Positions 61,014 to 64,000 of a DNA stretch of 64,000 nucleotides are shown here, piece by piece. The stretch comes from Planctomycetota bacterium (lineage in GTDB: Bacteria; Planctomycetota; Phycisphaerae; Phycisphaerales; UBA1924), in contig JAGWZK010000003.1 in the NCBI GenBank assembly GCA_018968885.1, positions 124,001-188,000 of the forward strand, given 5' to 3'. Each line of letters begins with the position of its first letter. Position 1 is the stretch's first letter. The translations under genes were made by a program, and so were the position numbers. The notes under the pieces are model-generated. The model did not search any database. It was not told the origin of the DNA and saw only the letters and a list, made by a program, of their open reading frames with translations.

Positions 61014-62363
61014 ATGCGAAGAGCGACGTGCATCACGGGTCTGGGAGCAGTGAGTGCAATGGGTGTGGGCGTTCCTGCCTTGTGGGAGGGGCTGGTGGCA
61101 GGGCGGTCGGCGGTGGGCCCGCTGACGAGCATTGATGCCTCGGGATTTGGCGCCAAACTGGGAGGCGAGGTCAAGGACTTTTCCGCCAAGGACCACGTGC
61201 CCAAGCACTATCGCAAGGCCGTGAAGATTATGGCGCGGGATATCGAGTTGGCGGTGGTGGCGGCCAAGGAAGCGGCCGAACACGCGGGACTCATCACTCG
61301 GGCCGGGTTGCCGGAGGGGCAGACGACGGGAACGACGTATCCGGCCGAGCGGATGGGGTGTCACATCGGGGCGGCGTTGATCGCGGCCGAGACTGTTGAG
61401 TTGACCACGGCGATGGCGACTGCGGTGAAGGAGAGCGATGGAGAGTTTGACCTGCAGGCCTGGGGTGGTGCGCCGGGTGGCAAAGGGGCGATGAACAACC
61501 TGACTCCACTGTGGCTTTTGAAGTATCTCCCCAACATGCTCGCAAGTCACGTGACGATTCTGCATGGGGCCGAGGGACCGAGCAACACCATCACCTGCAA
61601 TGAGGCGAGTGCGTTGTTGTCGATCGGGGAATCGATGCGGGTGATCGAGCGTGGGGCGGCGGACGTGTGCTTTTCGGGCGGTGCTGAATCCAATATCAAT
61701 CACATGCGCCTGGCGCGCCTGCAACTGGCGGGGCGGCTTGCGGCAACGGCTGGGGATGACAACGGTGGCGATGTGCCCCGTCCATATGACGCCGCGTCTC
61801 CCGGCACTACACCCGGTGAGGCGGGTGCGGTGGTGATGGTGGAGTCATTGGAGTGTGCGCAAAAGCGTGGTCAGAAGGTGCTGGCGCGGATTGCGGGATT
61901 CGGGGCGGCCCATTCTCCCCCGCCGCAGATTCCACCATTTGCACAGCGGCGAATAGAGCCGGATGAGGGATTGGCACTGTCGATTCTGGCGGCGCTGCGC
62001 GATGCGGGGATCGGGGCGGATGCGATTGATGCGATCGTGCCACACGCCAGCGGAATTGCGGATGTGGATACTCCGGAGCTGGGCGCGCTGCGTCAGGTGT
62101 TTGGAACGCGCTTGAAGGAAATCCCGCTGATCACGCTGACGCCGAATGTGGGGCATTCATTATCAGGACAGGCGGGGTTGATGGTGGCGGCAGGGGTGAT
62201 GGCGCTGACGACACAGACGCTGCCGGGTCGTTTGCACGCGGGATCGCCACCACCGGATGCGCGGGCGGAGAAGTCCTCGTCGCGCAGCGTGAACTTGAGA
62301 TATATCGTGGTGTGCACCTCGTCATTGGGTGGACAGAACGCGGCGATTGTGTTGTCGAACTGA
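61014..62363 (+). CDS. Beta-ketoacyl synthase with atypical motifs
   Basis: 449 residues from the ATG at 61014 (frame open to 60753). The KAS start TCITGLGAVSAMGVGVPALWEGL, the Cys region SNTITCNEASALLSIGES (Cys present, usually TACATG), the first His in VPHASGIADVDTPELGALRQVFG (usually NAHGTSTPLND), and the second His in LTPNVGHSLSGQAGLMVA. All three catalytic residues are kept, but the surrounding motifs differ from FabF. It could act on an unusual acyl chain. A second KAS begins at 63430 and the RGG protein lies between them. Confidence 0.85.
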   Translation: MRRATCITGLGAVSAMGVGVPALWEGLVAGRSAVGPLTSIDASGFGAKLGGEVKDFSAKDHVPKHYRKAVKIMARDIELAVVAAKEAAEHAGLITRAGLPEGQTTGTTYPAERMGCHIGAALIAAETVELTTAMATAVKESDGEFDLQAWGGAPGGKGAMNNLTPLWLLKYLPNMLASHVTILHGAEGPSNTITCNEASALLSIGESMRVIERGAADVCFSGGAESNINHMRLARLQLAGRLAATAGDDNGGDVPRPYDAASPGTTPGEAGAVVMVESLECAQKRGQKVLARIAGFGAAHSPPPQIPPFAQRRIEPDEGLALSILAALRDAGIGADAIDAIVPHASGIADVDTPELGALRQVFGTRLKEIPLITLTPNVGHSLSGQAGLMVAAGVMALTTQTLPGRLHAGSPPPDARAEKSSSRSVNLRYIVVCTSSLGGQNAAIVLSN

Positions 62364-62619
62364 TCTTGAGTATCCAGGCGCAGGTGCAGAGTGCCAAATG
62401 GCCAAAGTTCCAGATGGCGATATTCAGAACACGCCCCCGCATTCGCTAAGGTCACATCCCGCGTGCCTTGATCTGGTCATTTGGTGATCTGGTTATTTGA
62501 AACTTCCCGCCACCACTCTGTGGTGGCGGCCTGCCAACAATCGAGAGCTTCAAGCACGGCCTGGTCATGTCGGCCGGAGCCGCTTCAAGTGCTTCAAGCT
62601 CTTTACAGGAGTGATTGCA
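62364..62619. other. Intergenic region with perfect hairpin
   Basis: Perfect hairpin CCGCCACCAC-TCT-GTGGTGGCGG at 62507-62529, without a T-tract, so it may be an RNA structure rather than a terminator. Two near-identical direct repeats GATCTGGTCATTTG and GATCTGGTTATTTG precede it (about 62470-62499). No gene recognised. Confidence 0.45.
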
Positions 62620-63339
62620 ATGTCAGGCGAGTACCACAGCGACTACAGGAGTGACTACAGAGGCGGCGGTGATCGGGGAGGAGATCGTGGTGGGCGTGGT
62701 CGCGGTCGCGGCGGATACGGCGATCGTGGTGGGGATCGGGGACGGGGTCGTCCTCGTCGTCAGGGAATTCCGCTTTCGGCCCTGGATCAGAACCTCACCA
62801 GCGTGAGCCACAAGATCATCGGCATCGCGACTGAGATTCACAGCACACTGGGCCCGGGCTTTGACCGCGCGGTGTATGTCGAGGCCTTCAAGAACGAGAT
62901 GACTGCCGCGGGAATCAACTTCACCGCTGGCAAGGCATTTGATGTGTCGTACAAGGATCGCGTTGTGGGAAAGACCACCGCCGACTTTGTGATTGAGAAT
63001 CTCTTCATCGTCACCATCAGCGATCGTTCCTCCCACATCGGCGGTTTTGATCGCAGCCAGCTGCGTGGGCAGTTGAAGGCGGCGGATCTGACTCTGGGCC
63101 TGATCGTTTCCTTTGGCGGCCGCCGCCTGAAGGATGGTCTGGTGCGCGTCTTGAACATCGAGAAGCTCAAGCGTGATCACCCCGGCCAGTTTGATCTGGC
63201 GGATGACGAGGGTGGCGAAGGCGGTGGTGAAGGCGCAGGCGAGCACTCTTCCGGCGATTCGGAATGGGATGACCATTCTTCTTCCGGCTCGGATTCGTTT
63301 GGTTCCGGACGTAGCGTCAACTTTGACGACCGCGTGTGA
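62620..63339 (+). CDS. RGG-tailed degenerate GxxExxY protein
   Basis: 239 residues from the ATG at 62620 (AGGAG upstream; frame open to 62497). Residues 5-49 are Arg/Gly/Asp-rich (YRGGGDRGGDRGGRGRGRGG). The middle is a GxxExxY/PDDEXK_3-like domain: KIIGIATEIHSTLGPGFDRAVYVEAF. In homologues the GxxExxY motif is GLLESVY; here the Glu position is Arg. The nuclease-like part TADFVIENLFIVTISD lacks the Glu and Lys of the active site. The C-terminal 40 residues are Glu/Gly/Ser/Asp-rich. It may bind RNA or proteins rather than cleave DNA (inference). Confidence 0.8.
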   Translation: MSGEYHSDYRSDYRGGGDRGGDRGGRGRGRGGYGDRGGDRGRGRPRRQGIPLSALDQNLTSVSHKIIGIATEIHSTLGPGFDRAVYVEAFKNEMTAAGINFTAGKAFDVSYKDRVVGKTTADFVIENLFIVTISDRSSHIGGFDRSQLRGQLKAADLTLGLIVSFGGRRLKDGLVRVLNIEKLKRDHPGQFDLADDEGGEGGGEGAGEHSSGDSEWDDHSSSGSDSFGSGRSVNFDDRV

Positions 63340-63359: not shown

Positions 63360-63395
63360 CCGCCCCGCCGGGTGATGCCGCCGGGGCGGCTTTGT
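63360..63395 (+). terminator. Rho-independent terminator after the RGG protein gene
   Basis: CCGCCCCG (63360-63367) and CGGGGCGG (63382-63389) with further pairing in the loop, then a T-containing tail (CTTTGTTTG). Lies between the RGG gene and the next KAS. Confidence 0.8.
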
Positions 63396-63429: not shown

Positions 63430-64000
63430 ATGGCTCAGCAGCGCGTGGTGATTACCGGGATGGGCTGGGTGACGTCTCTGGGGCATGATCTGGAGACGGT
63501 GTGGAGCGCGCTTCTCAAGCCCAGCAGTGGCGTGGGGCCGATCACGCGCTTCGATGCCTCAACGTTTGAGACCAATTTCGCGGCAGAGGTGAAAAACTTC
63601 TCGCTGGAATCCATCCTGGGTGCCAAAGCCAAGGAGCACGCCGGTGCCGGGTTGCATTCACAGTTTGCGCTCGGCGCGGCGATGCAGGCGTGGAAACAGT
63701 CGGGATTGGCACAGTTTGCAGGATTGGACCGGCGCCGAATGGGGATTTACTTTGCCAGTGGCGAAGGGCCGCTGGATTTTGGAAACTTCGCCCGAACCAA
63801 CTTGGCTTCGTGGAAGCCCGAGACGCGCACGTGCGATGCCGTGGCGTGGGCCACGAAGGCGGCGACGACGCTGGTGGCTGAGCGTGAAGTCGAGCAGGAG
63901 CCGAATCTAGCGTTGACTCATCTGGCGTCGGCATTTGGCTGCCGCGGACCGGCCTTCAACTGTCTGACCGCGTGCGCTGCGAGCAATCAGGCGATTGGAG
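63430..64000 (+). CDS. Beta-ketoacyl synthase (3' end outside window)
   Basis: The frame is open to the end of the window. ATG at 63430 has GGGA 9 bases upstream; ATG at 63421 is also in frame. RVVITGMGWVTSLGHDLETVWSALL is the KAS N-terminus, and the active-site Cys lies in FNCLTACAASNQAIG (63957-64000), the usual TAC(A/T) motif. Compared with the KAS at 61014, the Cys region is more canonical. Both enzymes flank the RGG protein gene, so they may belong to one pathway, possibly a fatty-acid or polyketide-like one. Confidence 0.9.
   Translation, partial: MAQQRVVITGMGWVTSLGHDLETVWSALLKPSSGVGPITRFDASTFETNFAAEVKNFSLESILGAKAKEHAGAGLHSQFALGAAMQAWKQSGLAQFAGLDRRRMGIYFASGEGPLDFGNFARTNLASWKPETRTCDAVAWATKAATTLVAEREVEQEPNLALTHLASAFGCRGPAFNCLTACAASNQAIG

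Follow-up and report, generated by a model that had tools for sequence, protein, structure and literature searches.

The locus and its features

The window, by which we mean the whole 64-kb stretch of DNA that was analysed, contains an open reading frame of 239 aa (62620-63339, ATG start) lying between two beta-ketoacyl synthase (KS) genes, whose products are condensing enzymes of fatty-acid/polyketide type. We refer to this frame as the pseudonuclease gene. The features of the locus are as follows:

61014..62363, + strand: KSbeta, a chain-length-factor-like ketosynthase of 449 aa (Pfam ketoacyl-synt, 8.3e-25), with E197 at the position of the active-site Cys
62607..62611, + strand: Shine-Dalgarno sequence AGGAG, recognised from the sequence and preceding the ATG at 62620
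62620..62763, + strand: RG-rich, Tyr-containing and nearly Lys-free disordered N-arm, residues 1-48 (composition; most of residues 1-42 have an AF2 pLDDT below 50)
62764..63189, + strand: degenerate GxxExxY/PDDEXK_3 core, residues 49-190 (profiles, alignment, AF2 and Foldseek), with the catalytic Lys replaced by S134
63190..63336, + strand: disordered C-terminal tail of residues 191-239, acidic and in this species also rich in Ser (composition, AF2)
63360..63389, + strand: hairpin rich in GC with TTTGTTT after it, resembling a terminator or attenuator, in the gap between the pseudonuclease and KSalpha genes
63430..64000, + strand, running past the window to G000:C14:188764: KSalpha-like ketosynthase of 444 aa (Pfam; NCBIfam fabF, 444 bits), with Cys182 intact

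A chance or frame artefact as the source of the pseudonuclease frame is ruled out by the Shine-Dalgarno sequence, by the existence of orthologues and by low dN/dS. GGAG-type sites occur upstream of nearly all orthologue starts, the positions of which were set by these sites. The location between two KS genes, noted earlier from the sequence alone, was confirmed by Pfam.

The segment of about 53 aa that precedes the core contains 13 Arg, 18 Gly, 5 RGG and 9 RG, and the Arg/Gly-rich N-terminus described in the sequence-only reading is therefore real. The C-terminal tail, of about 51 aa, carries 14 Asp or Glu residues and a net charge of -12. In a PDB sequence search no homologue of the core was found, the matches being mainly to RG tails such as those of 40S uS5 and GAR1. 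A second 'RGG' match in the host genome (L002) was discarded, as the frame it hit lies within a longer ORF with resemblance to PLP-dependent enzymes.

Two minor elements flank the gene. The hairpin at 63360-63389 is strong and is a candidate attenuator or terminator inside the operon, with the regional count of such sites not exceeding shuffle expectation. In the gap 5' of the gene, positions 62387-62491 hold a degenerate repeat, both inverted and direct (TGATCTGGTCATTTGGTGATCTGG...), which may be what is left of a small repeat element.

An inactivated nuclease core under purifying selection

The middle domain matches both PF13366 (E=2.1e-19, 70.5 bits; curated cut-off 22) and the GxxExxY family TIGR04256 (E=1.8e-20, 73.4 bits; curated cut-off 35). 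It is the only PDDEXK_3 gene in the 3.39-Mb host genome, and searches with PF05635 gave no match in this genome or in the control genomes. The earlier description of the domain as PDDEXK_3-like with a lost Glu/Lys site proved correct. Compared with ordinary members, the GxxExxY Glu is replaced by R83, the ExK Glu by T132, the Lys by S134, the His by D144 and the QxxxY Tyr by Q151, so that of the active-site residues the Asp (about D122) and Q147 alone remain. As the ExK position reads T-I-S, the protein lacks the D...ExK arrangement of an active PD-(D/E)XK nuclease.

Loss of active-site residues was scored across the orthologues (n=114). The catalytic Lys is absent in 114/114 orthologues, as compared with 0/45 ordinary GxxExxY genes. 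The GxxExxY Glu is gone in 83 of the 114 (present in 31) and present in 45/45 ordinary genes; the ExK Glu is gone in 71/114, and the Asp is retained in 93/114. In all 35 orthologues scored for it, the QxxxY Tyr is absent, as is the His that precedes the Gln. In the ordinary genes E, D and E are present in 44 of 45 cases and K in all 45. Homologues with intact nuclease residues and no RGG, which would have pointed to a sporadic expansion of low-complexity sequence, were found only as scattered ordinary GxxExxY paralogues. In close orthologue pairs the dN/dS of the core is 0-0.22 and mostly below 0.15, and the pseudonuclease core is under strong purifying selection.

AF2 models the core with high confidence (pLDDT 93, pTM 0.86) and predicts both arms to be disordered. 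The top Foldseek matches of the predicted core are PD-(D/E)XK nucleases: 4ic1 (SSO0001), which we take to be Cas4, LHK-Exo and lambda exonuclease. The match to 4ic1_A has a probability of 1.00, with 3.0 A over 101 columns, and that to lambda exonuclease a probability of 0.99. According to the model the core thus adopts the PD-(D/E)XK alpha/beta fold. It differs from Cas4 and lambda exonuclease in sharing only ~12-15% identity with them, in lacking ExK and in having no iron-sulphur cysteines that we noted. The median net charge is -2 for the orthologue core, -1 for ordinary GxxExxY members and -8 for the whole orthologue protein.

A family-wide protein with conserved disordered arms

Among 60 related genomes, orthologues (E <=2e-30) were found in 34 of the 36 other genomes of the host's GTDB family, in the order Phycisphaerales. 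The two exceptions, G026 (81% complete) and G028 (87% complete), have fragmented assemblies, and in G028 both KS genes are absent along with the pseudonuclease gene. When 248 genomes from across the class were sampled, each of the 16 belonging to the host family scored above 230 bits; outside the family the highest score, 123 bits, came from an ordinary GxxExxY gene. Contigs searched with a single-sequence pattern gave no match; the family was recovered by an alignment search of named genomes, which yielded 142 confirmed loci, 80 of them kept, labelled mostly as Phycisphaerales, Phycisphaeraceae or Planctomycetota. Across the 60 related genomes, the 248-genome class sample and the named records, no orthologue was found outside the host family. 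Three records labelled Cyanobacteria bacterium (L110), Isosphaera sp. (L132) and Leptolyngbya sp. (L133) carry the gene together with one or both KS neighbours, and are probably mislabelled or contaminated.

All 114 orthologues have an intact reading frame and are monophyletic in the tree, with a bootstrap of 71 for the orthologue clade alone and of 100 when their closest intact relatives, five GxxExxY genes from sister families, are included. The orthologues hence constitute one clade that is restricted to a single family of Phycisphaerales.

The RG arm, the core and the acidic tail recur together in most of the more than 100 orthologues. The architecture had been put forward as undescribed, and we found no description of it in the open-access literature, which does not imply absence elsewhere; mentions of GxxExxY there are irrelevant to this architecture and PDDEXK_3 is unmentioned. 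Across orthologues the N-arm consists of 36.5% Gly, 21% Arg and 5.9% Tyr, with 0.2% Lys. Its K/(K+R) ratio of 1%, as opposed to 41% in the core, indicates selection for Arg that goes beyond mere charge. Clustered RG and RGG, Tyr and near absence of Lys within a disordered segment are also the marks of RGG-box proteins, from which the window protein differs in having no RRM, KH or helicase domain and in carrying a dead nuclease core and an acidic tail. Asp and Glu together make up 42% of the tail across orthologues; of the acidic, Ser-rich tail that had been reported, the acidity is a conserved trait and the Ser richness is the window species' own.

The length of the N-arm varies widely among orthologues and correlates with tail length (rho 0.61, not corrected for phylogeny). 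The dN/dS of the arm is mostly low, with many synonymous changes. In one nested subclade only 10-17 residues precede the core and RG is absent, but both the dead core and the neighbouring KS genes are retained. Judged from these sequence comparisons, the RG arm is likely to be old, mostly retained yet dispensable, and not a product of sporadic expansion. Given the bootstrap values of 71 for the orthologue clade and 64 for the RG-less clade, the order in which RG was gained and lost is likely but not proven.

The ketosynthase pair and the origin of the gene

The active-site position of KSbeta is occupied by Glu in 58/63 scored records and otherwise by Asp or Gln, a single His occurring in the first set. 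KSalpha has its active-site Cys in 69/69 records scored. A Glu-for-Cys KSbeta paired with a KSalpha is found almost throughout the order Phycisphaerales. An adjacent pair of which one member has the Cys and the other does not is also seen in the type II PKS KSalpha-KSbeta (KS-CLF) enzymes such as actinorhodin 1tqy. Gln is the usual residue at the replaced Cys in CLFs, whereas KSbeta here has Glu and an extra gene separates the pair. The closest PDB relatives of KSbeta are FabF, with actinorhodin KS-CLF 1tqy also matched, and no type II PKS gene set was noticed beside the pair. A role of KSbeta as a MadA-type decarboxylase was considered and dropped, since MadA and MadB are hot-dog/GNAT proteins (PMC8666670).

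The KSbeta-pseudonuclease-KSalpha trio is complete in 60 of the 80 named records; at least one KS neighbour is present in 74 and neither in 6. In two genomes (G002 and G023) all three genes are unlinked and all are retained. In several genomes the pseudonuclease stop codon overlaps or nearly overlaps the KSalpha start. In 16 loci fetched from sister families of the order, the pseudonuclease gene is absent; the KSbeta-KSalpha gap is 12-103 bp in 13 of them, the remaining three having a different gene in the gap. This adjacency, together with the other genes found in the gap, indicates that the KS pair came first and that its intergenic gap is open to insertions. One such gene is nucleotidyltransferase-like (L162). 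The others (L158:8060-8535 and L155:6723-7189) resemble four-helix-bundle, 23S IVP-like genes and are flanked by inverted repeats of 30-42 nt; all were named from sequence.

Ordinary GxxExxY genes share with the orthologues the fold, the core length, the GPG..Y motif and the EVH, NF and DG positions. Long inverted repeats (gapless, score >=18, with one gene split by stops counted once), typically of the ACCACAGAGGCACAGAG type, flank 18/46 of these ordinary genes, as compared with 3/101 control genes and 0/115 orthologues. The orthologues further differ from the GxxExxY/PDDEXK_3 family in having no catalytic Lys, in carrying RG and acidic arms and in their fixed position. One of the closest intact relatives in the sister families (L187) has such flanking inverted repeats. 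The repeat-flanked loci of Phycisphaerae (L068, L173-L212) have the appearance of small mobile elements, and we found no description of such elements.

Possible roles of the pseudonuclease

With these data in mind, we consider it probable that a GxxExxY (PD-(D/E)XK) gene has been domesticated here, its product being catalytically dead and having a non-cutting role. According to this model, an ordinary mobile-type GxxExxY gene would have inserted between KSbeta and KSalpha in the ancestor of the family, lost its cleavage activity, gained disordered arms and become fixed. Such an insertion is suggested by the adjacency of the KS genes in sister families rather than by an intact element. The dead fold may have been retained through an acquired non-catalytic binding job, in which the conserved core and the charged arms would most likely bind macromolecules and act on the KSbeta-KSalpha system. 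The loss of cleavage with the fold kept, the linkage in most genomes and the co-retention when unlinked all point to a role without catalysis that is bound up with the KS pair. It counts against domestication with a binding job that one subclade has retained the gene but not its RG arm, that the core is not basic and that the KS linkage is broken in some genomes. If correct, domestication would provide a clear case in which an apparently mobile nuclease-fold gene came to encode a conserved host protein that does not cut and has disordered arms in the style of RNA-binding proteins. It would also mark a family-wide uncharacterised accessory to a KS pair whose non-catalytic member has an active-site Glu.

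What the protein binds can be proposed only tentatively. One may speculate that it is an RNA-binding RGG protein, an mRNA regulator or condensate former in which the nuclease fold serves as a nucleic-acid-binding platform. This reading, which we hold as a possibility short of an even chance, draws on the RG- and Tyr-rich, Lys-free disordered arm of most orthologues, on the relatedness of the predicted fold to lambda exonuclease and Cas4, and on the enrichment of bacterial Arg/Gly-rich low-complexity regions in RNA-binding proteins (PMC6821194). As a simple RNA binder it is weakened by the median net charges of the neutral-to-acidic core and the acidic whole protein, and also by the Asp interspersed in the arm and the dispensability of the arm in one clade. 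An autogenous mode, in which the protein would regulate its own KS operon through RNA binding by the RG arm, is probable as the form of such regulation; autogenous or not, RNA-binding regulation of the operon is conceivable and tentatively proposed. Alternatively, the dead core might dock on the KSalpha-KSbeta heterodimer, the Arg-rich arm drawing in the acidic acyl carrier protein (ACP) and the acidic tail tuning or blocking this attraction. The conserved trio, the co-presence with the KS pair even when unlinked, the overlap or near-overlap with KSalpha and the uncorrected arm-tail length correlation are all in keeping with such an accessory. However, sister families have the same KS pair without a pseudonuclease, the subclade without the RG arm still has the pair, and the strict preference for Arg over Lys fits RNA-binding RGG boxes better than a generic attraction of ACP. 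We regard docking on the heterodimer as rather unlikely, and would say the same of any role in which the protein serves the KS pair as a scaffold or recruits ACP to it; RNA-binding regulation of the operon ranks slightly higher.

It is very improbable that the gene is a neutral passenger, that is, a decaying mobile GxxExxY gene stuck in an important operon, with RG and acidic repeats made by GC-rich slippage. The ordinary relatives do look mobile, the codons for Gly and Arg are GC-rich and arm length is highly variable, but the low dN/dS of core and arm in close pairs, the frames intact in 114 orthologues and the keeping of the gene when off the operon argue against decay. Within domestication, it appears unlikely that the protein is a general RNA or DNA factor whose gene just happens to lie in the operon. 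Less likely still is an RG-driven ribonucleoprotein or condensate scaffold, derived from a mobile-element pseudonuclease, that would couple the expression or the assembly of a KSalpha-KSbeta lipid/polyketide synthase pair throughout the family.
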